From a virus, in IMG/VR virus record IMGVR_UViG_3300021961_000721, positions 1 through 21,782 of that record: a DNA stretch of 21,782 nt. One strand, written 5' to 3'. Below the pieces are notes generated by a model. It did no database searches and was not told where the DNA came from. It saw only the letters and a program-made list of their open reading frames with translations. A program made the translations under genes and the position numbers. Shown one piece after another: positions 1 through 12,978 of this stretch (its first letter is position 1; each line of letters begins with the position of its first letter).

Positions 1-149
1 TGGCTATTGATGTTGCTTTAGTGGTGCATGGATTTATGTACGACATTTCTTTTGAGAACATGGCTGAACATTTGTGGGACAATGAAACACAAGCGTTGTT
101 TGCTTCCATCATAGCTTTCCACTTTGGCGGTAGAGCGTTTGGTAAATGA
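1..149 (+). CDS. Probable holin, C-terminal end only (gene starts upstream of window)
   Basis: Only the last 48 codons are present, reading in frame from base 3 to the TGA at 147-149. The visible part ends in a hydrophobic/aromatic stretch, ALFASIIAFHFGGRAFGK, which resembles the end of the three-transmembrane phage holin family, where the last membrane helix runs into a short FxFGxR...K tail. A holin would sit in the inner membrane and release the cytoplasmic endolysin encoded 190 bases downstream, which has no export signal of its own. Its stop overlaps the next start (ATGA, 146-149), so translation is probably coupled. The N-terminal membrane helices are outside the window, so the assignment rests on the tail motif and on position in a lysis cassette. 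It could instead be another small membrane protein. Confidence 0.5.
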   Translation, partial: AIDVALVVHGFMYDISFENMAEHLWDNETQALFASIIAFHFGGRAFGK

Positions 150-343
150 AAGTAGATTCTAGTAATCTGATTCACGCTCATCGAGTAAGCGAACAGGCTT
201 ATTTGCGTCACGCAGAAAACCTGAAACGAATGCAGGCTATAGTAGATGAGGAAGCTAAAAAGATTAAAGAATTAAATGCTAAATGTGAGGCTAAAGAACG
301 AGAAGCATCTTTAACAACTGGACGAATAGATGTTACAGTATGA
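146..343 (+). CDS. Small helical protein of unknown function in the lysis cassette (65 aa)
   Basis: I do not recognise this protein. It is highly charged, and its middle (residues about 20-52) is rich in Lys, Glu and Ala with regular hydrophobic spacing, as in a coiled coil. There is no signal peptide, lipobox or membrane segment, so it does not look like a classical i-spanin (Rz), which needs an N-terminal membrane anchor. It starts in an ATGA overlap with the probable holin and ends in another ATGA overlap with the endolysin (340-343). This ties its translation to lysis genes on both sides. A lysis-accessory or regulatory role is inferred from context only. Confidence 0.7.
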   Translation: MKVDSSNLIHAHRVSEQAYLRHAENLKRMQAIVDEEAKKIKELNAKCEAKEREASLTTGRIDVTV

Positions 344-816
344 ATGTAAGCGACAAAGCCATTAAGATGATTGTACACCATGAAGGATTACGTTTAAAAC
401 CTTATAGGTGTCCCGCTAAACTTTGGACAATAGGAGTTGGTCATGTTCTGTATCCCGATCAAGGTAAGATGGCTATTAATGAAAGAGATGGTTATCAACT
501 TCGCCCAGAAGACAATAGAGTTTTCACACAAGAAGAAGTTAACAACATTTTAAAAGCAGACCTTAAACGTTTTGAGCAAGGTGTAGATAGATATATAACA
601 ACTCAATTAACTCAAGGGATGTTTGATGCTTTAGTATCTTTCTCTTTTAACGTAGGACTTGGAACACTGCAACGATCCACTTTACGAATGAAACTTAATA
701 GAGGGGATAAAGATGGTGCGGCAGAAGAATTATTAAAATATTGTATGGCTGGTGGTAAAATATTAAAAGGTTTGCAAAATCGTAGGATTGATGAGAAAGC
801 TATGTTTTTATCTTAG
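340..816 (+). CDS. Endolysin, GH24 lysozyme (T4/lambdoid type muramidase)
   Basis: This is a peptidoglycan-degrading lysozyme of 158 residues, close to the 145-165 usual for the family, which cleaves the MurNAc-GlcNAc bond at the end of infection. The GH24 catalytic pattern Glu-8-Asp/Cys-5-Thr is present as E15 (HHEGLRLKPY), C24 and T30 (TIGVGH). The family FNVGLG segment is at 103-108 and the closing GLQNRR at 144-149. The Asp of T4 lysozyme (D20) is replaced by Cys24. There is no N-terminal hydrophobic segment, so it is not a SAR or signal-peptide endolysin and should need a holin, as proposed just upstream. The start has no clear ribosome binding site and overlaps the previous stop (ATGA), suggesting coupled translation. 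Confidence 0.93.
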   Translation: MNVSDKAIKMIVHHEGLRLKPYRCPAKLWTIGVGHVLYPDQGKMAINERDGYQLRPEDNRVFTQEEVNNILKADLKRFEQGVDRYITTQLTQGMFDALVSFSFNVGLGTLQRSTLRMKLNRGDKDGAAEELLKYCMAGGKILKGLQNRRIDEKAMFLS

Positions 817-825
817 GAGAATAAA

Positions 826-963
826 ATGCCGCTTAAAAAAGGAAGTTCACAAAAAGTAATTAGTGCTAATATTAAACGTGAAATGAAACATGGCAAGCCT
901 CAAAAACAAGCAATTGCCATTGCTTTACGTTCGGCAGGTAAAACTAAAAAGAATAAAAAATGA
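826..963 (+). CDS. Tiny basic protein, phage MPLKKGSS family (45 aa, DUF6496-like)
   Basis: This short gene encodes 45 residues beginning [20 protein letters not shown] and ending in a Lys-rich tail (KTKKNKK). The pattern MPLKKGSS...[20 protein letters not shown] is a recurrent small phage/bacterial protein family, which I recall as DUF6496; its function is unknown. A good ribosome binding site (AGGAGA, 816-821) lies five bases before the ATG. The stop overlaps the next start (ATGA, 960-963). The charge suggests nucleic-acid binding, but that is inference. The family match is by pattern memory; the reading frame itself is well supported by its start signal, coupling and conserved-looking composition. 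Confidence 0.8.
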
Positions 964-1226
964 AACTAGCTTATGTCATTTGGGAAGATGCTTCCGAACT
1001 TGACATAACACCTTGGGCTGAACATGAAGAAGACTTTATTTATGTTCCAGTTTTGTGTAAACAAGTAGGGTTTGTTTTATATGATGGGCCAGAAGGGATT
1101 GTTTTAACTGAAGGTGTGTTAGATGATGGAACAGTTGCTAGGCGTAACCAAATACCAAGAGGTATGATTAGGAGTGTAGAATGGTTGACAGAACCAAGTT
1201 TTTGGACGGAAGTGGTAAGCGGGTAA
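960..1226 (+). CDS. Conserved-looking small phage protein, unknown function (88 aa)
   Basis: I do not assign a function. The protein is acidic and rich in Trp and hydrophobic beta-type stretches ([15 protein letters not shown] near the start; [12 protein letters not shown] near the end). This looks like a small beta-rich domain made of three or four strands, without membrane segment or signal. It begins in an ATGA overlap with the tiny basic gene upstream. It ends 46 bases inside the probable small terminase gene, an unusually long overlap for this genome. Small proteins of this look often sit between lysis and terminase genes in podoviruses, but that gives no role. Confidence 0.75.
1170..1174 (+). 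promoter_or_regulatory. Ribosome binding site fixing the small-terminase start
   Basis: AGGAG lies six bases upstream of the ATG at 1181, entirely inside the coding region of the previous gene. It is the only good Shine-Dalgarno sequence near this start and supports initiation at 1181 despite the 46-base overlap. Confidence 0.7.
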
Positions 1227-1660
1227 TATTACAACTCTTCAAAGAGTTTGCTCGTTCAGATGTAAAATTTAAGCCTATATATACACTTCAACAATGGAAA
1301 GAAGTGTTTTTAGATTTACGTGATCCATCTGAATATCAAGCAGCTATGGAACTTCTTGGTGATTGGGAACACTGGTTAGAAGTACGTAATCACCCTTTAA
1401 TAAAACAACACATTGATAAATGGCAAACAGAACTTGAAGTTAAACTTCGTAGTGAAGCAATTCAGCAGATGAAAATGCATGCTAAACAACCCGGTGGTAC
1501 TGCTGCTGCTAAATGGTTGGCTGATAAAGGATACACTCAGGAAGGGCTTAAAAAGCCTGTAGGAAGGCCCAAAAAAGAAGAGGAACCCCCTACCATCAAC
1601 ACAGGTAGAATTGCTGGGGATATGGCTCGTTTGGGTATTGTTATTGGAGGGAAAAAATAA
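1181..1660 (+). CDS. Probable terminase small subunit
   Basis: This 159-residue protein is probably the DNA-recognition subunit of the packaging motor, which loads the viral end onto the large terminase. The middle is helical with a WEHWLEVRNHPLI stretch. Residues 105-118 read GGTAAAKWLADKGY, like the (G)xAAKWLAxKGY helix seen near the C-terminus of many podovirus small terminases. This is followed by an AT-hook-like GRPKK at 128-132. Position supports the call: two small genes upstream of the large subunit, in the same strand and operon. An AGGAG six bases before the start supports 1181. The C-terminus (TGRIAGDMARLGIVIGGKK) may be the segment that meets the large subunit, by analogy. No classical helix-turn-helix is obvious by eye, so a small doubt remains. 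Confidence 0.75.
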   Translation: MVDRTKFLDGSGKRVILQLFKEFARSDVKFKPIYTLQQWKEVFLDLRDPSEYQAAMELLGDWEHWLEVRNHPLIKQHIDKWQTELEVKLRSEAIQQMKMHAKQPGGTAAAKWLADKGYTQEGLKKPVGRPKKEEEPPTINTGRIAGDMARLGIVIGGKK

Positions 1661-1929
1661 TGCCGTTTATGACAAATGGAAAACGTGATTATAAAAAACA
1701 ATACGAAAAATACGATGGCAAATCTTCTGTAAAAAAAGATAGGGCTATGCGTAATAAAGCTAGGCGTATGCTTGAAAGAGAAGGTAAGGTGAGTAAGGGT
1801 GATGGTAAAGATGTAGATCATAAGAAACCGTTAAGTAAAGGTGGAAGTGTTAAACGTAGCAATTTACGTGTTACTAGTAAGAGGAGTAACAGAAGTTTTT
1901 CACGAACATCTAATGGGAGTATGAAATAA
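1660..1929 (+). CDS. HNH-like protein placed between the terminase subunits (89 aa)
   Basis: The C-terminal half carries an HNH-type beta-beta-alpha-metal signature: VDHKKPLSKGG at 52-62 (D53, H54), NLRV at 68-71 (N68) and SNRSFSR at 76-82 (N77 in the place of the last His, as in HNN variants). The N-terminal half is a very basic helix-forming region that could bind DNA. No zinc-binding Cys pairs are present. HNH proteins encoded beside terminases are known in HK97-like phages to stimulate terminase cleavage, and this gene lies exactly in the terminase cluster, so a packaging role is a reasonable inference. The alternative is a free homing-type nicking enzyme. A strong ribosome binding site (GGAGGG, 1646-1651) precedes the TAATG overlap with the previous gene. 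Confidence 0.75.
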   Translation: MPFMTNGKRDYKKQYEKYDGKSSVKKDRAMRNKARRMLEREGKVSKGDGKDVDHKKPLSKGGSVKRSNLRVTSKRSNRSFSRTSNGSMK

Positions 1930-2210
1930 TGGCTAAAGATAGCAGACTAGAACGTGCTGGTGTTAGTGGGTATAACAAACCTAAGCGTACACCAAACCAT
2001 CCTAAAAAAAGCCATGTTGTTGTAGCCAAAGAAGGTGATAAAGTTAAAACTATTCGATTTGGTCAACAAGGTGTTTCTGGTAGCCCTAAAAAAGAAGGTG
2101 AAAGCGAAAGCTATAGGAAGCGTAGGGAGAGTTTTAAGGCTCGTCACGCTAGTAACATATCTAAAGGTAAAATGAGTGCTGCATATTGGGCTAATAAGGT
2201 TAAGTGGTGA
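1929..2210 (+). CDS. Small basic phage protein, DUF5872-like (93 aa)
   Basis: This Lys/Arg-rich 93-residue protein has three recognisable blocks: a SGYNKPKRTPNHPKKSHVVV start, a KTIRFGQQG centre and a FKARHASNISKGKMSAAYW end followed by ANKVKW. The combination VVVAKEGDKVKTIRFG ... FKARH ... AAYWANKVKW matches what I remember of the DUF5872/5754 group, found in phages and some giant viruses and of unknown function. It lacks the Cys residues seen in some members. It sits in a TAATG overlap with the HNH-like gene and in a TGATG overlap with the large terminase gene. The charge and the packaging context suggest DNA binding, but this is inference. Confidence 0.75.
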   Translation: MAKDSRLERAGVSGYNKPKRTPNHPKKSHVVVAKEGDKVKTIRFGQQGVSGSPKKEGESESYRKRRESFKARHASNISKGKMSAAYWANKVKW

Positions 2211-3733
2211 TGACTGAAAAAGAACTAGTTAAGCAAGCGGCAGAGGCAGACCTCCTCACGTTTATCAAGCTAGTAGCCCCACACAGGATGTTGGGTGCTG
2301 TGCATGAAGAACTTTGTAGGTGGTGGCAAAGAGAGGATGCTAAAGACAATCAACTTGTACTTCTTCCTCGTGACCATCAAAAGAGTCAAATGATTGCATA
2401 TAGGGTTGCATGGTGGATTACAAAACATCCAGAAACAACTGTGTTATATGTTTCTGCTACAGCAAACCTTGCAGAAAAACAATTAAAAGCTGTTAAAGAT
2501 ATTTTATTGTCAGATATTTATAGATTTTATTGGCCCGAAATGGTTAATGAAATGGAAGGTAAACGAGAGAGATGGGCTGTAGATGAGATTAGTGTAGATC
2601 ACCCAAAACGTAAAGCAGAAGGTGTGCGAGATGCCACAATTAAAGCTGCTGGTATCACTGCTAACGTAACTGGTTTACATTGTCAAGTAGCAGTGTTAGA
2701 TGATGTGGTTGTTCCAGATAATGCCTACACACAAATTGGACGAGATCAAGTACGTGCCTTCTACTCTCAACTATCCTCAATTGAATCAACTGGTGCAAAA
2801 GAGTGGGCTGTAGGTACACGTTATCATCCCGGTGATTTGTACAAAGATATGATGGAAATGAGTGAATCATATTGGGATGAGGCCATTGATGAAGAAATTG
2901 AAAATGAAGTGTATGAGGTTTTTGAACGTGTAGTAGAAACTAATGGTGAGTTTTTATGGCCTAAACAACGTAGAACAGATGGTAAAGTATTTGGGTTTGA
3001 TGCAAAAGAACTTGCTCGTAAAAAAGCTAAATATCTAGATATTACTCAGTTTTATGCTCAATATTATAATAATCCAAATGCTGTAGAAACTCAATTAATA
3101 GATAAGTCTCGTTTTAATTATTACGAAAGAGATAAAATTGAAAATTTTAGTGGTGCTTGGTATATTAACGACAAGTTACTTTATGTGTATGCAGCAATGG
3201 ATTTTGCATACACAGTTAATAATAGTTCCGATTATACGGTGATAATGGTAGTAGGGGTGGATGAAGATAATAATTATTATGTTTTAGATGTGGATAGATT
3301 TAAAACAAATAAGATTAGTGTGATGTATGATAAGGCAGAAATTGTATACAAAAAGTGGAAGTTTAGAAAACTACGTTGTGAAGTAGTTGCAGCACAAAGA
3401 CTTATTGTACAACAATTCAAAGATTATATGCGTAGTCAAAATATTATGTTTACAATTGACGAATATAATCCCCCACGCAACATGAGTAAATCAGAACGTA
3501 TTGCTGCTATACTTGAACCACGTTACAGTAATAATCAAATATACCACTACAAAGGTGGTAATTGTCAAATATTAGAAGAAGAACTTATGATGAATAATCC
3601 AGAACATGATGACGTTAAAGATGCTTTAGCTTCATGTATTGAAATTTGTAAATCCCCTTTATCTGCTCGTACATGGGGACGTAAAACAAATATTATTCCA
3701 TTCAACTCTAAATTTGGTGGAGTAGCTTACTAA
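2210..3733 (+). CDS. Terminase large subunit (packaging ATPase and nuclease)
   Basis: This is the motor that pumps DNA into the prohead and cuts concatemers. Numbering from the ATG at 2210 gives 507 residues (T7 gp19 has 586). A deviant Walker A, PRDHQKS at 53-59, is followed by a WWITKHPETTVLYVSAT strand typical of the ATPase core. Walker B is AVLDD at 161-165, with a second Asp where Glu is usual. The RNase H-like nuclease shows its acidic residues in AAMDFAYT (D331), CEVVAAQ (E391) and HDDVKDALA (D467/D468 and D471). The GTG at 2204 would add two residues, but the ATG at 2210 forms a TGATG overlap with the previous stop and is preferred. It is followed after nine bases by the portal gene. 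Confidence 0.95.
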   Translation: MTEKELVKQAAEADLLTFIKLVAPHRMLGAVHEELCRWWQREDAKDNQLVLLPRDHQKSQMIAYRVAWWITKHPETTVLYVSATANLAEKQLKAVKDILLSDIYRFYWPEMVNEMEGKRERWAVDEISVDHPKRKAEGVRDATIKAAGITANVTGLHCQVAVLDDVVVPDNAYTQIGRDQVRAFYSQLSSIESTGAKEWAVGTRYHPGDLYKDMMEMSESYWDEAIDEEIENEVYEVFERVVETNGEFLWPKQRRTDGKVFGFDAKELARKKAKYLDITQFYAQYYNNPNAVETQLIDKSRFNYYERDKIENFSGAWYINDKLLYVYAAMDFAYTVNNSSDYTVIMVVGVDEDNNYYVLDVDRFKTNKISVMYDKAEIVYKKWKFRKLRCEVVAAQRLIVQQFKDYMRSQNIMFTIDEYNPPRNMSKSERIAAILEPRYSNNQIYHYKGGNCQILEEELMMNNPEHDDVKDALASCIEICKSPLSARTWGRKTNIIPFNSKFGGVAY

Positions 3734-3742
3734 GAGGAAAAT

Positions 3743-5503
3743 ATGAACGATAATATTCAAGTTAGTTTTGAAGATGATGTGTTAGCACGTACTATCTCAG
3801 ATATGTGGGTAAGGTGGGATAGTTCTCGTTCTAGTTGGAAAACTGAACAACAAGAGTTGCGTAATTATTTATTTGCTACAGATACTCGCAAAACTAGCAA
3901 TAGTAAGTTGCCTTGGAAAAACTCCACTGTTACGCCAAAGTTGACGCAAATAAGGGACAATTTGCATGCCAATTATATGGCTGCTTTATTCCCATCTGAG
4001 AATTGGTTCTTTTGGGAAGCCACAGATAAGAGTCCAGAATTAACTAAAAAGCGTTATGCTATAGTTAATTACATGAAACAGAAATTAAAATCTAGTAACT
4101 TTCAACTTTTAATTTCACAATTAGTATATGACTATATTGATTTTGGTAATGTAGTAGTAACTTATGATTATGTACGTGATGTAATTTCTGACGAAGAAGG
4201 AAATGTAGTTAATAAATATGTGGGGCCAAAAGCCTACCGCATTAATCCTTTAGACTTAGTATTTAATCCTTTGTCTGAAACCTTTGATAAAACCCCTGTT
4301 ATCCGCAGGATGGTTAAGTCAATTGGAGATTTGTTAACTGATGTTGAGACTAAACCTGCACTGAATTATAATAAAGGTGTTGTTGATAAAGCAATGTCTT
4401 TTAGGCAAAACTTTAGGGATGATCCAGAATTCAAAAAAGAAATTAATCTTTCTATAGATGGATTTGGCAGTGCAGATGAATATTTAACCAGTGATATGGT
4501 GGAGTTATTAGAGTTTTGGGGTGATGTATATGATCCCGATAAAAAGAAACTATTACGTAATCAACTTGTAACCATCATTGATAGGAAGTGGGTGTTACGT
4601 AAACAACCCAATCCTTTATGGACAGGTAGCAAACCAATGTTCCATTGTGGTTGGAGGTTACGTCCAGACAACCTATGGGCGCAGGGGCCACTAGACCAGT
4701 TAGTTGGTATGCAATATCGAATTGACCATCTAGAAAACCTAAAAGCTGACGTATTTGACCTTATTGCGTACCCTGTTATGAAAATTAAAGGGAACACAGT
4801 AGAGGAGTTTGAATATGAACCGGGAGCAACTGTGTTTCTGGGAGATGAGGGGGATTTAGAATTCTTACGTCCAGATGCCACTGCACTACAAGCAGACTTG
4901 CAGATTAATGAGTTGATGAATAGGATGGAAGAACTTGCTGGTGCGCCTAAGCAAGCTATGGGTATTCGTACTCCCGGTGAGAAAACAAAGTATGAGGTAC
5001 AAAGCCTTGAAAACGCCGCAGGACGCATTTTCCAAAGCAAGGTGAGTTGGTTTGAAAGGAACATCCTAGAACCGCTTTTAAACGGTATGTTAGCAGAAGC
5101 TATTCGTAATTTTGAAGGTGTAGAGCGTATTCGCACTGTAGATGAGGATTTTGGTACTGAAAGTTTTGTTGAAGTTACTAAAAATGACTTGATGGCTGCT
5201 GGAAAAATCTATCCGATTGGAGCAAGGCATTTTGCTGACCAAGCTAGGTTTATTCAAGAGTTGGCTCAAACTGTACAAGCAGTGCAAGCTATTCCTACAG
5301 TTGCTGCTCACATTTCTGGTAAAGCAATTGCTAAGGCACTTGAGGAAAATCTTGGTTGGCAAAACTATAAGATTGTCTCTGACAACGCTATGATTTTTGA
5401 ACAAGCTGAGACACAGCGGTTGATGAACCAAGTGGCTGAAGACATTCAAACTGAAGCTGCCGTTAGTCCAGAAGGCCCACCTCCAGAACAGCCAATGCAA
5501 TGA
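3743..5503 (+). CDS. Portal protein (head-tail connector)
   Basis: This 586-residue protein forms the dodecameric ring through which DNA enters and leaves the head (T7 gp8 is 536). The N-terminal part has the LPWKNSTVTPKLTQIRDNLH stretch and LFPSENWFFWE that I associate with portals of podoviruses in marine and freshwater phages. Near residue 410 the AGAPKQAMGIRTPGEKTKYE segment corresponds to the conserved loop and stem region of connectors (GxPxxxxGxRtpgEkTayEv). The C-terminus is Gln/Glu/Pro-rich and probably flexible. A GAGG ribosome binding site lies a few bases before the ATG. The gene directly follows the large terminase and precedes scaffold, the standard order. A strong promoter begins five bases after its stop codon. 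Confidence 0.92.
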   Translation: MNDNIQVSFEDDVLARTISDMWVRWDSSRSSWKTEQQELRNYLFATDTRKTSNSKLPWKNSTVTPKLTQIRDNLHANYMAALFPSENWFFWEATDKSPELTKKRYAIVNYMKQKLKSSNFQLLISQLVYDYIDFGNVVVTYDYVRDVISDEEGNVVNKYVGPKAYRINPLDLVFNPLSETFDKTPVIRRMVKSIGDLLTDVETKPALNYNKGVVDKAMSFRQNFRDDPEFKKEINLSIDGFGSADEYLTSDMVELLEFWGDVYDPDKKKLLRNQLVTIIDRKWVLRKQPNPLWTGSKPMFHCGWRLRPDNLWAQGPLDQLVGMQYRIDHLENLKADVFDLIAYPVMKIKGNTVEEFEYEPGATVFLGDEGDLEFLRPDATALQADLQINELMNRMEELAGAPKQAMGIRTPGEKTKYEVQSLENAAGRIFQSKVSWFERNILEPLLNGMLAEAIRNFEGVERIRTVDEDFGTESFVEVTKNDLMAAGKIYPIGARHFADQARFIQELAQTVQAVQAIPTVAAHISGKAIAKALEENLGWQNYKIVSDNAMIFEQAETQRLMNQVAEDIQTEAAVSPEGPPPEQPMQ

Positions 5504-5507
5504 GGTA

Positions 5508-5535
5508 TTGACAAACATAAAAAATAGTGTATAAT
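5508..5535 (+). promoter_or_regulatory. Consensus sigma70-type promoter between portal and scaffold genes
   Basis: A perfect -35 box (TTGACA, 5508-5513) and a perfect -10 box (TATAAT, 5530-5535) are separated by 16 bases (17 is optimal). The spacer and downstream region are very AT-rich. Predicted transcription would begin at about 5541-5543 and feed the 83-residue gene, scaffold, capsid and tail genes. This is the only clear host-type promoter I found in the window. It suggests extra host-polymerase transcription of the capsid block in addition to read-through from upstream. Confidence 0.75.
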
Positions 5536-5546
5536 TATAAATTTAT

Positions 5547-5798
5547 ATGAATAAACTATTATTAAATAATAAACCTAAAGATGTTACTAATGAAGAGTTT
5601 ATTAAACTTTGGAATAATAGTGGATATACTTTAGGATGTTTATATACAACATTATTAATGTTAAAGGAAGAACTTAATAACATTAAAAAAGATGATTTTG
5701 ATTGTGCCAATCATTACGCTAAATTAGCGTACAACATGGGGCAAATTAAAAACATTGATTTTATTATATCATTACTTCCAGATTCTGCCAAGAGATGA
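5547..5798 (+). CDS. Unknown small protein following the promoter (83 aa)
   Basis: I do not recognise this protein. It is rich in Asn, Lys and Leu and looks fully helical: a DVTNEEFIKLWNNSGYTL segment, then CLYTTLLMLKEELNNI, an acidic linker and a final KNIDFIISLLPDSAKR. There is no signal peptide. The start has no ribosome binding site and lies only about five bases after the predicted transcription start, so a transcript from the adjoining promoter would be nearly leaderless. Its AT content is higher than that of the capsid genes downstream. Its position between portal and scaffold could indicate a head-assembly accessory, but a non-structural role or late acquisition fits equally well. Confidence 0.7.
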   Translation: MNKLLLNNKPKDVTNEEFIKLWNNSGYTLGCLYTTLLMLKEELNNIKKDDFDCANHYAKLAYNMGQIKNIDFIISLLPDSAKR

Positions 5799-5845
5799 CG
5801 TTTTAAAAAAACAACACTCTAAGGCTTTTACTTTTAGGAGAAAGC

Positions 5846-6577
5846 ATGACCGATGCAACAATTTTTGGTGAGAAAGAAGACAGTGTTTCCACCGCCACTG
5901 CAACAGCGACAACTGAAGCATCCCTTTTCAACGCATTAGTTGGAGAGACACAAAAATACAAGACTGCCGATGATTTGGCTAAAGCATACTCAAATGCTGA
6001 CCAGTTTATTGAAACTTTGAAAGAAGAAAATCGTAAACTACGTGAGCAAGTAGCGTCTGCTAAAACCATTGATGAGGTTCTTGAAAGAATGTCTAGACAA
6101 GAAATCACACCAGAGGCCGACAATCCTACTGTACAGGGTATTACACCCGATGTTGTGCAACAGCTTGTAGAGAAGACATTAGATGGTCGTAAACAGCAAG
6201 AATATAAAACAAACAATCTTTTAAAAGCAGATGCTTTAATGAAAGAGAAGTTTGGTGAGAAAGCTGCCGATGTTTTTAAACAACGTGCATCCACTCCAGA
6301 AAAACAACGTATTTTGATGGAACTTGCTGCTAATGATCCGAATGAATTTGTATCTTTGTTTGTTGGTGTTCAATCACCCGCTAATAACATGGATGTAAGT
6401 TCTTTTAATACGACTTCTGTAGTTTCTAATGGAAGTGATAGAAGTAAGATAGAAGGTACGAAAGAATGGGCTGCTAAAGTCCGTAAAGACAACCCTCAAA
6501 CTTACTGGTCACAAGAATTCCAATATAAGCTACAACAAACTGTTTCTAAAAACCCTTCCCTATATTTTGGGAATTAA
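5846..6577 (+). CDS. Capsid scaffolding protein
   Basis: This acidic, mainly helical protein of 243 residues (T7 gp9 is 307) probably guides coat-protein assembly and leaves the prohead before DNA fills it. The sequence has a disordered Thr/Ala-rich start, then YKTADDLAKAYSNADQFIE (residues about 38-56), followed by a LKEENRKLREQV coiled coil. This arrangement is typical of podovirus scaffolds. The C-terminal part (EGTKEWAAKVRKDNPQTYW, then SLYFGN) is basic and aromatic, as expected for the coat-binding end. It sits immediately upstream of the major capsid gene with a strong ribosome binding site (TAGGAG, 5835-5840). The assignment combines composition, motif and position. Confidence 0.88.
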   Translation: MTDATIFGEKEDSVSTATATATTEASLFNALVGETQKYKTADDLAKAYSNADQFIETLKEENRKLREQVASAKTIDEVLERMSRQEITPEADNPTVQGITPDVVQQLVEKTLDGRKQQEYKTNNLLKADALMKEKFGEKAADVFKQRASTPEKQRILMELAANDPNEFVSLFVGVQSPANNMDVSSFNTTSVVSNGSDRSKIEGTKEWAAKVRKDNPQTYWSQEFQYKLQQTVSKNPSLYFGN

Positions 6578-6587
6578 GGAGAATTAA

Positions 6588-7544
6588 ATGGCTGGTATTG
6601 ACTACTCAAAAGTTAGTGACCACCTAGTTCGTACAGAACTCTGGTCATCTGAACTAAAAGATATTCTTCAAGAACAACTAATGGGCACAAAATATGTTCG
6701 CATGCTCAACGGTTTTCCTGATGGAGATCAATTTACAATCCCTTCAATTGGTGAACTACCAATGCGTGAAGTTGCTGAAAACACCCCTGTTACATACGAT
6801 GCTATGGACACTGGTGAATTCACTTTCTCCATTGATCGCTATGTTGAAGCAGCAACTTTCATCACCGACAAAGCTAAACAGGATAGTTTCTATTCACAGC
6901 AGCTAATCGGTATGTTCCCATCTAAAATGCGCCGTGCATTGGATGAGAACCTAGAGAGTTCTGTAATGTCTCTTGCTAACACTCAAACTGTTAACAATGC
7001 TAACTCTATCAACGGTGCTTCCCATCGTTTCGTAGCTTCTGGCAGTTCCAACACTGTCCTATCCCTAGACGACTTTGCTAAAGCTAAGTATGCTCTAGAT
7101 AAGGCTCAGGCAGGTGGTTCTCGTGTTGCTATCATTGATCCTTCACAAGAGTATGTGTTTAACACTCTAGTTGGCGCACAAGCGTTTACTAACAATCCTC
7201 AGTTTGGCGGTATCGTAAATGGTGGTTTCGTAAATGAAGTTACTGGCATGCGTTTTATTCGTAGCATCTTTGGTTTTGATGTTTACGTATCTAACTTCCT
7301 TGCTACACCTACTGATACTTCTATTAGCAGTGTTAACGTTCCTACTTCTCCAGTAACAAACATTTTCATGTCTGTTGGTGGTGATCTAACTCCATTCGTA
7401 GGTGCTTATCGTCAAATGCCTCGTGTTGAGTATGAGCGCAATAAAGATATGCGCCGTGATGAGTATGTTATGAATGCTCGTTTTGGACTAAAGCTATATC
7501 GCCCAGAGTGCTTAGTAAGCGTTATCACTAAGTCCACAATCTGA
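6588..7544 (+). CDS. Major capsid protein (HK97 fold expected)
   Basis: This 318-residue protein (T7 gp10A is 345) is the shell subunit. The order scaffold-capsid, the length and the strand-rich layout with a long spine-type helix (DDFAKAKYALDKAQ near residue 165) support the call, as do the SIDRYVEAATFITD and MFPSKMRRALDENLE segments. Its codon choice is clearly richer in C and G than that of its neighbours (many GTC, ATC, CTA, CGT, AAC), as expected for the most highly translated virion gene. It has an excellent ribosome binding site (AAGGAG, seven bases before ATG). No protease or fused domain is visible, and the N-terminus looks mature. Confidence 0.92.
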   Translation: MAGIDYSKVSDHLVRTELWSSELKDILQEQLMGTKYVRMLNGFPDGDQFTIPSIGELPMREVAENTPVTYDAMDTGEFTFSIDRYVEAATFITDKAKQDSFYSQQLIGMFPSKMRRALDENLESSVMSLANTQTVNNANSINGASHRFVASGSSNTVLSLDDFAKAKYALDKAQAGGSRVAIIDPSQEYVFNTLVGAQAFTNNPQFGGIVNGGFVNEVTGMRFIRSIFGFDVYVSNFLATPTDTSISSVNVPTSPVTNIFMSVGGDLTPFVGAYRQMPRVEYERNKDMRRDEYVMNARFGLKLYRPECLVSVITKSTI

Positions 7545-7563
7545 TAGTTGAAAGGAATATAAC

Positions 7564-8022
7564 ATGACTCGCAAATCTACTTGGACTAACGCAGACGGAC
7601 TAGTTGTAGGCTTTGGCCCTAACTATCCTGAGCGTAACGAAGCAGGTGTACTTGAAACTGACGGTGTAGTGAAAGAGGCTCGCCTTGCTATCACCTATCA
7701 ATCTTCTGGTGCAACTGTAGCACTACCTGCTGGCAGTGTTGTTATGGACGTTGTTATGAAGGTTGGTACTGCATGGGCAGGTGGCACAGACGTGCAAGTT
7801 GGTGACGGCAGCGATGCTGATGGCTGGATTTCAGCTACTCAGGGCGCTGTTGCTAACCTAACTGCTGGTGCTACTGTTCGTGCTGCTGGTGCATATGCCA
7901 TTGGTGATGCAGCTACTAACCGTGGTCTAGGCAAAGTGTATGCTTCTGCCGACACCCTAGATGTTGCATTTACTGGCACATTCACTGCTGGTACTGCTGA
8001 CATTTTTGTTCGTTACATTTAA
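7564..8022 (+). CDS. Probable capsid decoration / minor head protein (152 aa)
   Basis: This is a Gly/Ala/Val/Thr-rich, beta-type protein without Cys, directly downstream of the major capsid gene. It shares that gene's GC-richer, high-expression codon pattern. Segments such as ATVALPAGSVVMDVVMKVG, VQVGDGSDADGWI and the end TLDVAFTGTFTAGTADIFV resemble the small beta-barrel proteins that coat phage heads and reinforce the shell. The closing FTAGTADIFVRYI is a beta-strand ending familiar from phage head-associated proteins. T7 itself has no separate gene of this kind. It has an AAAGGA ribosome binding site and ends nine bases before a strong hairpin. The decoration role is inferred from position, composition and codon use; a minor tail or head-stabilising protein is the alternative. 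Confidence 0.7.
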   Translation: MTRKSTWTNADGLVVGFGPNYPERNEAGVLETDGVVKEARLAITYQSSGATVALPAGSVVMDVVMKVGTAWAGGTDVQVGDGSDADGWISATQGAVANLTAGATVRAAGAYAIGDAATNRGLGKVYASADTLDVAFTGTFTAGTADIFVRYI

Positions 8023-8030
8023 GTAACTAA

Positions 8031-8066
8031 GGATGGGGGATTAGTTTTCGGACTAATTTCCCTTCC
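8031..8066 (+). terminator. UUCG-capped hairpin after the capsid genes (attenuator or mRNA end)
   Basis: Bases 8031-8045 pair with 8052-8066: fourteen pairs including two G-T wobbles and one T-T mismatch (8034/8063). T8046 and G8051 can also pair as a wobble, closing a TTCG loop (8047-8050), the exceptionally stable UUCG tetraloop. The following run (TCCCTTTT) is only weakly T-rich, so full termination is uncertain. The hairpin would at least protect the 3' end of a capsid/decoration mRNA or reduce read-through to tail genes. It lies entirely in the gap between two genes. Confidence 0.6.
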
Positions 8067-8084
8067 TCCCTTTTGGAGATATAA

Positions 8085-8666
8085 ATGGCGAATGTGCAAC
8101 ACAGTGCGCTAACTGATCCTAATATTCACGAACCAAAAGGAATTGCTGCCGCTGCTTCTGGTAAGGTGTATGTATCAAATGGTAGTGGAAGTGGTAGTTG
8201 GCAAACTCAACCCGGACATGCGTACGGTGAAATTTACATCAGTGGAAATTCTACAGCATTTACTTTAGCAGCAGCTAGTGCTGCTAGTAAACTTAATCCT
8301 ACAGGCGCATGGACTACTAATGGGTATCAAAATATAACACCATCCCCATCTACAGGACAATTTACTATTGTTAGTGGTGGCGAATACCAATTAAATTTTT
8401 GGGCTACTTTTGAAACAGCAGCAATTGCTAGTAGTGCATTATATAACTTTTATTACGCAATAAATGGAACTCCCGGTTCTAGAAAATCTTACATTAAAAA
8501 AATATCTAACGGTGTAGATGTACTTCATATTTCAGCAGTAGGATTTGCAAGTTTAAATGCTACTGATACTATTTCAATGTTTGTTTCTGGTGATGGTACT
8601 TCGTCAGGTACTAACATAGTTGTTACAGAAGCTGGTTTTAGTTGTTTATTAGTTGACCCAGTATAA
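8085..8666 (+). CDS. Capsid or tail fibre-like protein with LTDPxxHEPKG start
   Basis: This 193-residue protein appears to have two parts. Residues 9-39 contain ALTDPNIHEPKG followed by SGKVYVSNGSGSGSW, a pattern recurrent at the start of phage head- or tail-attached fibre proteins. From about residue 45 the sequence is a run of beta strands with alternating hydrophobic residues (GEYQLNFWATFE, ALYNFYYAINGTPG, LNATDTISMFV). This suggests a C-terminal jelly-roll of the TNF/C1q kind, which normally forms trimers. The likely role is a short surface fibre or knob for host or environmental binding. Its place between decoration and adaptor genes suggests attachment to the head rather than to the tail. 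The start follows a GGAG site. The fold is inferred from pattern only. Confidence 0.65.
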   Translation: MANVQHSALTDPNIHEPKGIAAAASGKVYVSNGSGSGSWQTQPGHAYGEIYISGNSTAFTLAAASAASKLNPTGAWTTNGYQNITPSPSTGQFTIVSGGEYQLNFWATFETAAIASSALYNFYYAINGTPGSRKSYIKKISNGVDVLHISAVGFASLNATDTISMFVSGDGTSSGTNIVVTEAGFSCLLVDPV

Positions 8667-8675
8667 GGATACATC

Positions 8676-9383
8676 ATGGCTAAAATGACACTCCTTGATA
8701 TGACACAGAACATTTTATCAGCACTTGATAGTGATGCTGTAGATTCAATTGATGAAACTGTAGAAGCTGTGCAAGTTGCAGAACTTGTTAAAGAATCTTA
8801 CTTTGAACTTATTAGCCAACGTGATTGGCCTTTTTTGTTTGTACTTGGCAACTTAACTGCATTAAGTGATTTAAACAATCCTACTAAAATGAAAATTCCT
8901 GATACATGGAATAAAGTAAAGTGGATTAAATATAATAAAAAAGAAGTTAAGTATTTACCTCCTGCTGTATTTGATGATGTTATTAGTAATAGAGTAGCAC
9001 AATCAGGTGTAGTTAATAGTGCAGGATTTGTAATTAATACTGATCCTCAATATTGGACTAGTTACGATGATGTGTTTGTTGTATTTGATGGATATAATTC
9101 TTCTGTAGATACAACTTTACAATCTTCTAAAACTTCAGTGTATGGTACACAACAAGCAACATGGTCACACATCGACACATTCATTCCAAACATTCCAGAA
9201 AAGTTTTTTCCAACCCTTCTTGCTGAAGCTAAATCACAAGCATTTGTGAATTTAAAACAACAAAATAATGTAAGAGAGGAACGCAAAGCAACTCGTGGCA
9301 GGATGGCAATGCGGAATGAAGCGTGGAAAAACGATCAGGGAGAAATTAAATATAATGGGAAGGTTGATTATGGACGCAGGTAA
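8676..9383 (+). CDS. Head-tail adaptor, tail tubular protein A-like (T7 gp11-like)
   Basis: This 235-residue protein (T7 gp11 is 196) probably forms the ring below the portal that connects head and tail. It starts with LLDMTQNILSALDSDAVDS, then a helix AVQVAELVKESYFELISQRD followed by WPFL. This is the canonical start of gp11-type adaptors, in which helices are followed by the W-P-F motif. The C-terminal third holds FFPTLLAEAKSQAFVNLKQQ and a basic tail, also typical of the family. An AAGGA ribosome binding site spans the previous stop. The last 14 bases overlap the next gene. Function follows from the family pattern and from its place upstream of the nozzle gene. Confidence 0.88.
   Translation: MAKMTLLDMTQNILSALDSDAVDSIDETVEAVQVAELVKESYFELISQRDWPFLFVLGNLTALSDLNNPTKMKIPDTWNKVKWIKYNKKEVKYLPPAVFDDVISNRVAQSGVVNSAGFVINTDPQYWTSYDDVFVVFDGYNSSVDTTLQSSKTSVYGTQQATWSHIDTFIPNIPEKFFPTLLAEAKSQAFVNLKQQNNVREERKATRGRMAMRNEAWKNDQGEIKYNGKVDYGRR
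9357..9363 (+). promoter_or_regulatory. Ribosome binding site fixing the start of the 87-residue gene
   Basis: GGGAAGG lies six bases before the ATG at 9370, inside the end of the adaptor gene. It supports 9370 over the in-frame upstream ATG at 9295, which has no such signal and would overlap the adaptor by 89 bases. Confidence 0.6.
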
Positions 9384-9633
9384 TTTAGAAACCATTATGG
9401 CAAAACATCAAGCTAAAAAACAAGCCATAAAAGAACGTAAAGAAGAGCGTGAAGAAGCTGGTATTATAAATAAACTTGTAATTGAACGAACACCTAATGG
9501 GATGTATAGTTGTCGTTATTCTATGCGAGGTGGTATTCCAGACGAATTAAAAGGTTGGTTTACACGCAAAGATAGGATTATTTCTATAGCAAAACAAAAG
9601 GGGATTCAAATTGAAGAAGAAAGTTATGCTTAA
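9370..9633 (+). CDS. Small unknown phage protein (87 aa)
   Basis: The first third is a strongly charged helix rich in Lys and Glu (AKHQAKKQAIKERKEEREEA). It is followed by a compact beta-type domain, PNGMYSCRYSMRGGIPDELK and GWFTRKDRI. The pattern 'Y...Y...GG.(I/L)PDELKGWFT' recurs in small proteins of many phages, with unknown function. The start at 9370 is chosen for its ribosome binding site and modest 14-base overlap with the adaptor gene. It overlaps the next tiny gene by eight bases. The position between adaptor and nozzle genes suggests a minor virion or assembly factor, which is inference. Confidence 0.75.
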   Translation: MDAGNLETIMAKHQAKKQAIKERKEEREEAGIINKLVIERTPNGMYSCRYSMRGGIPDELKGWFTRKDRIISIAKQKGIQIEEESYA

Positions 9634-9769
9634 AGAAGATGCTATGCAGCGTCAACGTAGACTTGCTAAACTTGCTGAAGCAGGTGATAAAGCAAAACAA
9701 CAACTCGGTGTTCAAGAAAAAGAAGATGATCGAGATGTTAATAAACACAAATGGAAAGGCATGATGTAA
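9626..9769 (+). CDS. Tiny charged protein ending HKWKGMM (47 aa)
   Basis: This 47-codon gene overlaps the end of the previous one by eight bases. It encodes an almost wholly helical, charged peptide (QRQRRLAKLAEAGDKAKQQL), an acidic linker (EKEDDRDVN) and the closing HKWKGMM. The end is nearly identical to that of the next gene (GKWKGTM), including the DNA, which argues that both frames are real. The start has only a weak GAAGAAG site, so coupling to the upstream gene is likely. Function is unknown; the shared C-terminus may be a docking or packaging tag for the virion (inference). Confidence 0.65.
   Translation: MLKEDAMQRQRRLAKLAEAGDKAKQQLGVQEKEDDRDVNKHKWKGMM
9749..9769 (+). repeat. Copy 1 of a 21-base gene-end repeat coding KWKGMM-stop
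   Basis: This gene end is 19 of 21 bases identical to 9996-10016; the two differing bases fall at 9762-9763. Both copies are in frame, encode KWKG(M/T)M and include the stop codon. Confidence 0.7.
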
Positions 9770-9791
9770 TACTATACATTAGGAGAATATT

Positions 9792-10016
9792 ATGTGGAAA
9801 AACGTAGGAAATATGGTAAGTAAACTTCTTAATGAAATTGATTCTAAACCTAGTGGAGCAAGTAAATATGCTGGTACGTATGGTAGTGATAAAATAACTA
9901 ATGCAGCATCTCCACGTATTACTGCTGCTCCTATACAAGAAAGTGGAATTACAGAATTAGAAAGAATGAATAATATTATTGACGTAAATTCTGGTAAATG
10001 GAAAGGCACAATGTAA
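9792..10016 (+). CDS. Small unknown protein ending GKWKGTM (74 aa)
   Basis: I do not recognise a family. The protein starts MWKNVGNMVSKLLNEI (an amphipathic helix) and continues with a Ser/Gly/Ala-rich low-complexity middle (SGASKYAGTYGSDKITNAAS). It ends in a short helix and the GKWKGTM tail shared with the preceding tiny gene. There is no signal peptide or membrane helix. A good AGGAG site precedes the ATG. The stop is one base from the next start (TAAC ATG), so expression is probably coupled to the nozzle gene. Its location suggests a minor tail component. Confidence 0.75.
   Translation: MWKNVGNMVSKLLNEIDSKPSGASKYAGTYGSDKITNAASPRITAAPIQESGITELERMNNIIDVNSGKWKGTM
9996..10016 (+). repeat. 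Copy 2 of the 21-base gene-end repeat coding KWKGTM-stop
   Basis: This is the partner of 9749-9769 and lies at the equivalent place, the last six codons plus stop of the next gene. Confidence 0.7.
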
Positions 10017-10017
10017 C

Positions 10018-12219
10018 ATGGCAGTGCAAGCCGTAGTTAAAGATGCATTTACTTTTGTAGGTGGCCTCAACACTGAAGGAGGTTACTTCATCATTCCAGA
10101 AAACACCTATAAGGAAGGTGTTAATGTTATTCCACAAATGGATGGTACAATAGAACGTAGAACTGCTATAGACTATGAAACTAATTACTCTTTATATGCA
10201 GCAGGTATTTCTGCCGATAATAAAAACTTATATGCGTTCACAACAGGAGAATGGCATACCGTAGGGGGTAATGGAAATCTGGATTTTATAGTCGTACAAC
10301 TTGGAAACATGTTGCATTTTTACAATGCATCTACTGGTTCAATTAGTGGAAGTAAAAAAAGTTTTACAGTTAATTTAAACTCATATAAACAAACTGGCAA
10401 TACAGAACTTAATGGTACAGCCCTTTGTAGTTTTACAACTGCATATGGTAGACTTATAGTAACTAGTAAAAATACTAAACCAATTTTAATAACATACACA
10501 GCATCCACTGATTCTATTTCAATAAGTGAAATTACAATTAACATTCGTGATTTTAAAGGAAAACCTTTAGTAACTAGCGGTGGAGTTACAGTAGCTATAG
10601 ATGCAGAATACACATCAACAGAATGGGCAAACTTAGGTATATCTCTTTCTGATGTAACTTATAACCTGTATAATCAAGGTTGGACAGATTCACAAATAAA
10701 CACATACAAGTCTGCTAACTCAAATAAATATCCATCTAATACTAAGTCTTGGGTGTTTGGTAAAGATAGTAATGATAATTTTGATGCTTCTGTGTTGAAT
10801 AAACAAGACTTCGGCAACTCCCCTGCACCTAAAGGACACTACATTCTTAATCCATTTGATAATGTAACTTATTCTTTTAAAACTTGTGCATTCTTTGCTG
10901 GTCGAGCATGGTATTCTGGTGTGCCAGAAACATCGTTATTAGGCACTGTATTTTTTAGTCAAGTGCTAGATGACTTTAAAAAGATTGGTAATTGTTACCA
11001 GACTAATGACCCAACTTCAGAAGTGTTGAGCGATTTAGAAGATGATGATGGTGGTACTATAGAGATTCCTGATGCTGGAGAAATAACTGCTATACAATCT
11101 ATTGGTAGGGGTGTGATGGTGTTTGCTACTAATGGTGTGTGGCTTATTTCAAACATTGATCAAGGCTTCACTGCGGCTAGTTACACTGTATCTCAAGTAA
11201 CTAACATTGGATGCCTTAATAATAAATCAATTGTATTGGTGGAAGACACTATCATTTACTGGAGTAGTTCTGGCATTTATGCTATTGCATCTCCAAATGG
11301 TGTTGACTACTCAGCTAAAAACATTTCAGAAATAGCTATCAAATCATTTTATCAAAACATTCCAATTCTAGGTAAACTATATGCAGAGGGTGCTTATAAC
11401 GGCACAAGTAAAGTTATATATTGGTTATACTCCTCTACAACTACCACTTCAACTAGCGAAGGTAGATTTAATAAAAACACCATCCTAGCGTTTGATGTTC
11501 GTTTAAATTCATGGTATTGGTTTAGTTTAGATAGTAGTGTTGGTGTAATACCAGTTTCAATTCAACAAACAAAAGAAACAAATAGTGCTGGAGAAAACTA
11601 CGCAGTGATTGCAGGAACAGATGATGTTATATCTGGATCAGATAGTGTCATTGCAACTATACCTACATTACGTGGCACAGAAAAAGTATTTAAGGTGTTA
11701 ACACTGCATCCCGTTACTAGTAATAATTATTCTGCTACTTTTGCAGATTTTATTAATGAACGAGAAAATACAACTAAATTTAAAGATTGGTATCAGTTTA
11801 ATAATGTGGGCGTAGAAGTACCTGCATATTTTATAACTGGATATAATATGGGTAGTAATGGCCCTGCTCGTACAAAAACTGGACAATACCTCACTGTGTT
11901 TATGAAGCGAACAGAAACTGCTTTTGATGCAAATGCTGTCCCATTAAATCAAAGTGGATGTTTAATGCAAAGCAGATGGGACTTCACTGACAACGCATTT
12001 ACAGGGAAGTGGGCAGATGATGTTCAAGTGTATAGGCAATTGCGCCCATACTTTGCATCTCCTAGCAGTAATTTTGATGATGGATACCCTCTTGTTATTA
12101 GTAAGAATAAACTACGTGGGCGGGGTAAAGCAGTGCAATTTAAATTCACATCTCAAACTGGGAAAGATATGAAAATTGTAGGGTGGTCTGGAACATTCGT
12201 TGGAAGTACAAATGTTTGA
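10018..12219 (+). CDS. Tail nozzle, tail tubular protein B-like (T7 gp12-like)
   Basis: This 733-residue, beta-rich protein (T7 gp12 is 794) probably forms the distal nozzle of the short tail. The start, FTFVGGLNTEGGYFIIPENT followed by EGVNVIPQMDGTIERR, is the family signature: the nozzle begins with a '(F)xGGLN(T/Q)..(p.)....a.N......G...RR' segment. The middle contains propeller-like strands such as GRGVMVFATNGVWLIS and TIIYWSSSGIYAIA. The C-terminus (GKDMKIVGWSGTFVGSTNV) is the strand-rich end usual for these proteins. The ribosome binding site is weak and the gene is probably coupled to the 74-residue gene. No enzymatic depolymerase domain was recognised inside it. Confidence 0.88.
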   Translation: MAVQAVVKDAFTFVGGLNTEGGYFIIPENTYKEGVNVIPQMDGTIERRTAIDYETNYSLYAAGISADNKNLYAFTTGEWHTVGGNGNLDFIVVQLGNMLHFYNASTGSISGSKKSFTVNLNSYKQTGNTELNGTALCSFTTAYGRLIVTSKNTKPILITYTASTDSISISEITINIRDFKGKPLVTSGGVTVAIDAEYTSTEWANLGISLSDVTYNLYNQGWTDSQINTYKSANSNKYPSNTKSWVFGKDSNDNFDASVLNKQDFGNSPAPKGHYILNPFDNVTYSFKTCAFFAGRAWYSGVPETSLLGTVFFSQVLDDFKKIGNCYQTNDPTSEVLSDLEDDDGGTIEIPDAGEITAIQSIGRGVMVFATNGVWLISNIDQGFTAASYTVSQVTNIGCLNNKSIVLVEDTIIYWSSSGIYAIASPNGVDYSAKNISEIAIKSFYQNIPILGKLYAEGAYNGTSKVIYWLYSSTTTTSTSEGRFNKNTILAFDVRLNSWYWFSLDSSVGVIPVSIQQTKETNSAGENYAVIAGTDDVISGSDSVIATIPTLRGTEKVFKVLTLHPVTSNNYSATFADFINERENTTKFKDWYQFNNVGVEVPAYFITGYNMGSNGPARTKTGQYLTVFMKRTETAFDANAVPLNQSGCLMQSRWDFTDNAFTGKWADDVQVYRQLRPYFASPSSNFDDGYPLVISKNKLRGRGKAVQFKFTSQTGKDMKIVGWSGTFVGSTNV

Positions 12220-12496
12220 AACATTTTGGGATGATGAAGACGGTAAATTAGAATTTCAATATGTAGAAGATAAAGTATTTGCTCATGCCACAGCAAAACG
12301 ATGGAATAAATCTATATATTTAAAATTTCAAGATATATGGCATGTAGCCAAAGAAGAATTAAAAGAACAAGGATATAATGAAATATTAGTATTTATTCCT
12401 GACAATAATAAAAAATTATTTAAATTTCAATGTATGTTTGGTTTTGTATTACATATTAAACAAGACAATATGTTGATAATGAAATGTAAAATTTAA
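12212..12496 (+). CDS. Small GNAT-like protein in the T7 gp13 position (94 aa)
   Basis: The gene lies exactly where T7 carries gp13, between the nozzle and the gp14-like protein. The protein resembles small acetyltransferase-fold phage proteins: a RWNKSIYLKFQDIW helix, EELKEQGYNEILVFIPDNN (helix then strand) and a KLFKFQCMFGFVLH end. This matches the 'L...GY..i.v.i...d..l.kF...FGF' pattern of GNAT C-termini. It is too short for a full active acetyltransferase, so a structural or assembly role is likelier, as for gp13. The ATG at 12212 has a GGAAG site five bases upstream and overlaps the previous gene by eight bases. A TTG at 12200 is an inferior alternative. Confidence 0.65.
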   Translation: MFETFWDDEDGKLEFQYVEDKVFAHATAKRWNKSIYLKFQDIWHVAKEELKEQGYNEILVFIPDNNKKLFKFQCMFGFVLHIKQDNMLIMKCKI

Positions 12497-12505
12497 GGAG
12501 TTATT

Positions 12506-12967
12506 ATGCCAGCAAATTTAGCCTTATACGCAGCAACAGCCGTATTAGCTTATTCAACTTATCAACAAGGCGAATCTGCAAGAAAACAAGAACAAGCAGC
12601 AACTAGACAATATCAAGCGGAACAACGTAAATCAGAGATTCAAAACATTCGTAGTGTTCGTCAACAAATACGTGAATCTAGACTTGCGGCAGCAGGAATG
12701 ACTAATTTATCTGCACAAGTTGGTGGTTTTGGTGGAAGTGGTGTTGCTGGAGGAATAGCTAGTACAGGAAGTCAACTTGCAGGTAATTTAAACTACATGG
12801 GACAAGTAGCAGCACAAAATACTCAAATCACTGGAGCAGCTATACAAGGCGCACAGGCACAAGCAGAAGGTGCTATATGGGGTTCTATTGGTCAACTTGG
12901 TGGAACTATATTCTCTGGCTTAGGTGGGTTTAAAGCGTTTAATCGTCCACCAACTGCAACTGCTTAA
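12506..12967 (+). CDS. Internal virion protein B-like (T7 gp14-like)
   Basis: This 153-residue protein (T7 gp14 is 196) is probably part of the head's inner core and, after ejection, the outer-membrane part of the DNA channel. It has an N-terminal hydrophobic helix (ALYAATAVLAYSTYQQG, residues about 6-22) and a long Gln/Arg-rich coiled-coil stretch. A Gly-rich block (VGGFGGSGVAGGIAS) and a second weakly hydrophobic Gly-rich segment (IGQLGGTIFSGLGGF) follow. This layout is characteristic of gp14-type proteins. Context agrees: the two large ejection proteins follow. A strong AAGGAG site precedes the start. Confidence 0.85.
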   Translation: MPANLALYAATAVLAYSTYQQGESARKQEQAATRQYQAEQRKSEIQNIRSVRQQIRESRLAAAGMTNLSAQVGGFGGSGVAGGIASTGSQLAGNLNYMGQVAAQNTQITGAAIQGAQAQAEGAIWGSIGQLGGTIFSGLGGFKAFNRPPTATA

Positions 12968-12978
12968 TAATTTAAAAT

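Follow-up and report, generated by a model that had tools for sequence, protein, structure and literature searches.

A conserved sigma70-type promoter at the portal/small-gene junction of a Zobellviridae-like phage and its variable distance from the small-gene start codon

An exact sigma70-type promoter lies between the portal gene and an 83-residue gene in the window (the whole 21.8-kb virus record analysed here, 21,782 nucleotides), in which the gene order is terminase, portal, 83-residue gene, scaffold, capsid. Promoters of the same kind are conserved at this junction in most of the relatives compared. The reading preferred here, with a probability of roughly three in four, is that it is a mid-operon promoter for host sigma70 polymerase that would serve the scaffold and capsid genes, and that the small gene is its first cistron, translated leaderless where the spacing allows and from leadered or read-through mRNA elsewhere. 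The features concerned are as follows.

3743–5503, + strand: portal (head–tail connector) gene, an open reading frame (ORF) matching phrog_332 with E = 2e-88
5508–5513, + strand: −35 box TTGACA, 4 bases (GGTA) after the portal stop
5530–5535, + strand: −10 box TATAAT, after a 16-nt spacer from the −35 box
5541–5546, + strand: predicted 5′ leader of ∼5–6 nt, from canonical −10 to +1 spacing, no Shine–Dalgarno (SD) sequence
5547–5798, + strand: 83-residue gene for a small helical protein, by homology phrog_8956 (function unknown)
5836–5840, + strand: Shine–Dalgarno sequence AGGAG of the scaffold gene (SD 5)
5846–6577, + strand: scaffold gene, phrog_7931 (no PHROGs function), named by position
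6588–7544, + strand: major capsid gene, phrog_267, major head protein

The promoter and the genes around it

The TTGACA and TATAAT boxes are exact, 16 nt apart and just past the portal stop, as an earlier note on this DNA had described them, and 11 nt (5536–5546) separate the −10 box from the ATG of the small gene (5547–5549). They form the sole 12/12 sigma70-type match in positions 1–20000 of the window; the hexamers are near-consensus, the spacer of 16 nt is within the accepted 16–18 nt and the site is conserved. Because promoter-like sites overall are not enriched in the window (60, against 68.8 ± 9.9 in shuffles), the case for the promoter rests on its conservation. Two further promoter-like sites in the window score 11/12 (4344–4372 on the + strand and 5791–5763 on the − strand); they reach 11/12 in none of the 15 other window-clade representatives, several of which reach 10/12.

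With canonical spacing the unmapped transcription start is predicted at about 5541–5542, which would give a leader of about 5–6 nt and agrees with the five or so untranslated bases proposed earlier. The absence of a ribosome-binding site at 5547 is borne out by an SD score of 0. At least three consecutive anti-SD matches precede 16 of the 18 picked gene starts in the window; only 5547 and 12979, the latter being the start of a 1971-residue gene, have none. In the predicted fold of 5541–5600 the start codon is unpaired, and the folding energy is the same as in shuffles.

The phage, of which the window is a 21.8-kb fragment, is by sequence a Zobellviridae-like podovirus: the order portal, small gene, scaffold, capsid is the same in records labelled Zobellviridae, and the best 40 portal matches listed are 45–52% identical. 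A search of genome contigs with the window portal protein found no relative. The scaffold gene was named from its place between the small gene and the capsid gene, as in MEP401 and ICBM2. A phage lysozyme (PF00959, 340–816) is encoded near one end of the window and a lytic transglycosylase domain (PF01464, 21061–21663) near the other.

The small genes of the relatives align as one family. In a profile search 43 of the 51 aligned homologues matched phrog_8956 at E ≤ 0.01, a cut-off that the window protein did not reach. The gene sits between portal and scaffold, the scaffold gene follows it wherever the contig continues, and a gene of 68–85 residues lies directly between the portal and the scaffold position in 7 of the 9 named relatives fetched; in GX1 further ORFs precede the small-gene candidate, and in SIO1 the annotation differs at this place. 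A tblastn search with the small gene gave no match in the named phages. The AlphaFold2 model of the protein is helical (pLDDT 89.5), and fold searches with it yielded a single viral homologue but, at E ≤ 0.001, no solved structure. The gene and the gap before it have 19–27% G+C against about 35–45% in the surroundings, which prompted the idea of an inserted cargo gene (moron); this was rejected, the gene being present in all of the 101 window-type loci that reach far enough past the portal end and also in most of the named relatives fetched.

Conservation of the promoter among relatives

The relatives comprised the best 80 of 139, 80 of 148 and 80 of 138 matches, together with all 26 and all 73 in two lists. 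Identical junctions were merged, and 51 loci were left out because the portal was off the contig or absent or because there was no small-gene match, leaving 138 distinct junctions, the window included. These were labelled M (MEP401-type), O (ctOsX528-type) or W (window-type) by the best BLAST match of the small gene, although the tree places one O row, L130, within M.

A TTGAC[AT] box followed after 16–18 nt by a −10 box, with a score of at least 10/12, is present in 117 of the 138 junctions; the spacer is 17 nt in 113 of the 117 and 16 nt in the window and L001. Of 54 cluster representatives, from clusters of portal C-termini formed by single linkage at 92%, 29 (window included) score at least 11/12 before the small gene, against 0.18 of 54 expected from shuffled junctions, these clusters not being independent lineages and possibly hiding variation (27 members make up the window's cluster, and the L124 cluster contains distances of 6 and 8). 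The same score was reached before 0/42 terminase, 0/53 portal, 0/27 scaffold and 0/52 capsid starts (0/174). In 49 of the 64 window-type junctions TTGACA begins 17–32 bases upstream of where the portal stop ends, with the −35 box inside the portal coding sequence; it spans the stop in L002 and L004 and follows it in the window and L001. That both boxes are retained while the portal stop shifts around them counts for a real promoter. The GAC within TTGACA was unusable as a codon test, since the junctions had been picked for TTGACA.

By the rule used the promoter is absent from 21 of the 138 junctions, 11 of them in the window clade, so that it is not required in every case; scoring by hexamers is coarse, and L019 (TTGAAC) and L095 (TGCACA) count as promoter-less even though these hexamers precede TATAAT. 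Of the left-out loci, 31 of the 51 were inspected: 27 are without any site of at least 10/12; L138 has a promoter at the portal stop, on a contig that ends too soon for its distance to be measured; and L170, L171 and L111 have one 188–233 nt further on (in L170 and L171 sites of 12/12 and 10/12 lie ∼200 nt past the portal stop). Bar L138, these more distant relatives have no such promoter here, and neither do P12053L, ICBM2 and CRP-5, the Cobavirinae fetched.

Promoter-to-start distance and translation of the small gene

The number of nucleotides between the −10 box and the ATG differs between the clades. Among 47 M junctions 45 have the promoter, all with a spacer of 17 nt and an extended TGn, and the distance is 6 in 39 of the 45, 7 in two, 8 in two and 66–67 in two. 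Counting from the A of the ATG, a distance of 6 means that TTGAC[AT] occupies −35 to −30 and TATAAT −12 to −7, as in textbook promoters, and T stands at −1 in 20/20 representatives chosen for this distance. All 43 M junctions at distances 6–8 have T at −1 and are without an SD sequence; judged from sequence, this layout supports leaderless expression.

The 27 O junctions include 19 with the promoter, all with a spacer of 17 nt. The distance is 6–12 in 13 of them and 344–599, with other ORFs between, in four (L118, L121, L141 and L175); it is −59 in L120, the promoter lying within the small gene, and nominally −53 in L255, which has a broken frame, a mis-called start and a homologous ATG at 6. 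Among the ORFs inserted beside the promoter, that of L141 has an endonuclease VII domain and that of L117 is lyase/tailspike-like; those of L118 and L121 (162 and 165 residues) have no match above the family cut-off, and L175 has a 167-residue ORF inserted at the portal/small-gene junction.

Of the 64 W junctions 53 have the promoter, at a distance of −2 in 14, 6 in four, 11 in two and 19–91 in 33, so that only six of the 53 fall within 5–12 nt. The distance is 11 in the window and the near-identical L001 and 31 in the nearest tree relative, L002. In most of the 33 the intervening sequence is TA-rich; L003, L005, L027, L064 and others have a variable TA-rich filler that differs between close relatives, the portal stop and the ATG being at most 95 nt apart. 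On the portal tree the ATG distance changes 10 times and the portal-stop distance 18 times over the 28 M and O rows with promoter, against 20 and 10 times, respectively, over 30 W rows; thus, the ATG stays tied to the promoter in the M clade and drifts in the W clade.

SD sequences of at least four bases occur in 0/62 junctions at distances 5–12 and in 30/72 of the other tabulated classes, the four O junctions at 344–599 being excluded (Fisher p = 3e-10; 0/63 against 30/71 if L255 is moved), a contrast that is partly geometry and not independent evidence because the −10 box occupies the SD slot. Within W such sequences are found in 14 of the 33 junctions at distances 19–91. At distance −2 transcription should begin within the gene, leaving the ATG off the promoter's mRNA; an SD sequence lies upstream of the ATG in 8 of these 14 junctions and the members compared have similar N-termini, so that in these junctions the small gene is most probably translated from upstream mRNA.

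Zheng et al. (2011; PMC3160421) describe a TA-like signal about 10–12 bp before the start codon of leaderless genes and a −10 to start-site spacing range of 8–14 nt. The window agrees with that description in being without a Shine–Dalgarno sequence (SD score 0) but departs from it in the −10 spacing, as its ATG lies 16 nt after the A at position 2 of the −10 box, outside the 8–14 nt range; 39 of the 45 promoter-bearing M junctions, those at distance 6, agree with it in the −10 signal.

The earlier note had offered two routes for the small gene, leaderless translation from its own promoter or translation from longer read-through mRNA, and layouts suited to both occur among the relatives. The leaderless route is backed by the M junctions (distance 6 in 39/45) and did not hold up as a conserved trait of the window lineage, in which the distance runs from −2 to 91; for the small gene of the window itself leaderless translation is possible.

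That the window's small protein comes mainly from an own-promoter mRNA that is leaderless or has a 5-nt leader, and that this is the purpose of the arrangement, is thinkable but rather less than an even bet. The window start has no SD sequence, in MEP401-type relatives the ATG is kept exactly at the predicted +1, and the window-clade representatives L008 and L099 also have a distance of 6. Set against this are the distances of 11 in the window and L001, 31 in L002 and −2 to 91 clade-wide with 20 changes on the tree, and a review table in which a 5′ UTR is given as inhibiting ribosome binding in leaderless initiation (PMC9031893).

A similar, somewhat doubtful standing is given to the opposite reading, in which the promoter would be for scaffold and capsid only and the small gene would be translated solely from read-through mRNA, through coupling to the portal gene or an upstream SD sequence. 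Besides the W junctions at −2, it is favoured by L083 and L087, in which the upstream SD sequence lies inside the portal 3′ end, and by L016, L017, L018, L022, L023 and L094, which are promoter-less by the rule used and whose small-gene starts overlap the portal stop by 4 bases. However, the window ATG is 43 nt past the portal stop without an SD sequence, and some other reason would have to be found for the MEP401-type clade keeping to a spacing of exactly 6.

A stronger version of the leaderless reading is likewise tentative, with the odds somewhat against it: a fixed device in which the sigma70 +1 would be the A of the phrog_8956 start (in the MEP401-type also of the DUF3310 start), the proteins would be made only by 5′-AUG initiation, uncoupled from SD-driven scaffold and capsid, and the window clade would be losing the device as TA-rich filler grows. 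MEP401 has five TTGACT-17-TGnTATA[AC]T sites, two of them 6 nt before an annotated ATG, at gp43 (the small gene), whose ATG is at record position 29779 on the minus strand, and at gp21 (DUF3310), whose ATG is at 10794. Genome-wide, sites of at least 11/12 are barely above chance (MEP401, 5 against 3.3 expected; ctOsX528, 4 against 2.9), so that what counts is their common form and location rather than how many there are. A survey of gp21-type sites (39 distinct sites, drawn from MEP401 and from 80 viral-contig loci around gp20, two of the three MEP401 sites in the set lying elsewhere) found an ATG-started ORF at distance 6 in 19 of the 39, at 0, 1, 3 or 5 in ten and at longer distances in six, with no ORF in range in four. 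Distances below 5 do not suit leaderless initiation and argue against a strict rule.

A true start downstream of 5547, with a normal leader, might be suggested by the lack of an SD sequence at 5547; it is highly improbable and was rejected, since ATGAA[TC] stands at the gene start after the portal in 63/63 distinct window-type junctions compared and the N-terminal residues are alike across distance classes. Least probable of all is that the boxes are a chance product of the A+T-rich gap, which the low G+C content and the lack of excess over shuffles in the window would allow, and which was rejected on the 29/54 representatives against 0.18 expected, the 0/174 control starts and the −35 box within portal coding sequence in 49/64 window-type junctions.

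Role of the promoter and comparison with known systems

The preferred reading, a mid-operon promoter for scaffold and capsid with the small gene as first cistron, may be put as follows, with the start site, the use of host polymerase, the translation mode and the relative amounts inferred. A sigma70 promoter kept at the portal/small-gene junction would produce extra mid-operon mRNAs for scaffold and capsid, adding to read-through from the packaging genes. The phrog_8956 gene would be the first cistron, with its start codon in or beside the +1 region. Where the −10 box is 6 nt before the ATG, as in the MEP401-type, the mRNA would begin with AUG and be read leaderless; in the window a leader of ∼5–6 nt without an SD sequence would make initiation leaderless-like and weak. 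The scaffold and capsid genes downstream have good SD sequences, and read-through mRNA could also supply the small protein. The spacer of 16 rather than 17 nt in the window and its distance of 11, which is 5 nt off the leaderless optimum, speak against this reading.

No terminator-like site was found on the + strand from the promoter through the capsid gene. In L120 and L146, two separate tree rows, a perfect (12/12) TTGACA-17-TATAAT lies inside the small gene, at about codons 11–25, and still before the scaffold gene; that of L146 is outside the scanned range and hence not among the 117. In the resolved cases the promoter is upstream of scaffold. Throughout the relatives it most likely serves scaffold and capsid, and the common factor would be extra transcription of these genes, probably by host polymerase. 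A T7-type RNA polymerase was sought with PF00940 and not found in any of 12 records (nine of them IMG/VR records that may be incomplete), while the T7 control matched.

In T7 the promoter φ9, between gene 8 (portal) and gene 9 (scaffold), is likewise an extra promoter feeding scaffold and capsid, but T7 uses its own polymerase and its record shows no gene between, whereas here there are sigma70 boxes and the phrog_8956 gene. In ICP2 (Zobellviridae) an annotated sigma70 promoter similarly feeds a scaffold-position gene (gp17) and the capsid gene; it shares sequence with the 3′ end of gp18, the small gene, whose own start is preceded by GGAG, whereas the promoter described here comes before the small gene. 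The promoter is unmentioned in the titles or abstract openings of the literature found.

Leaderless phage mRNAs have mostly been discussed through repressor genes, and cI is the repressor of the temperate phage λ. The λ cI leaderless mRNA resembles the present case as a phage gene with a 5′-terminal AUG, read or proposed (PMC9031893), and differs in that the gene here leads a structural operon. Phage transcripts are described as often leaderless (PMC5312081). In the main text of the MEP401 paper (PMC10580990) the words 'promoter' and 'leaderless' occur 0 times.

Of greater interest is the MEP401-type layout, in which the start codon is kept at the predicted +1. As the MEP401 isolate and its host FZCC0133 are in culture, leaderless tuning of a structural operon by lytic phages would be directly testable there, and the window clade offers a natural series of predicted leaders, from none to about 85 nt, before one and the same gene.
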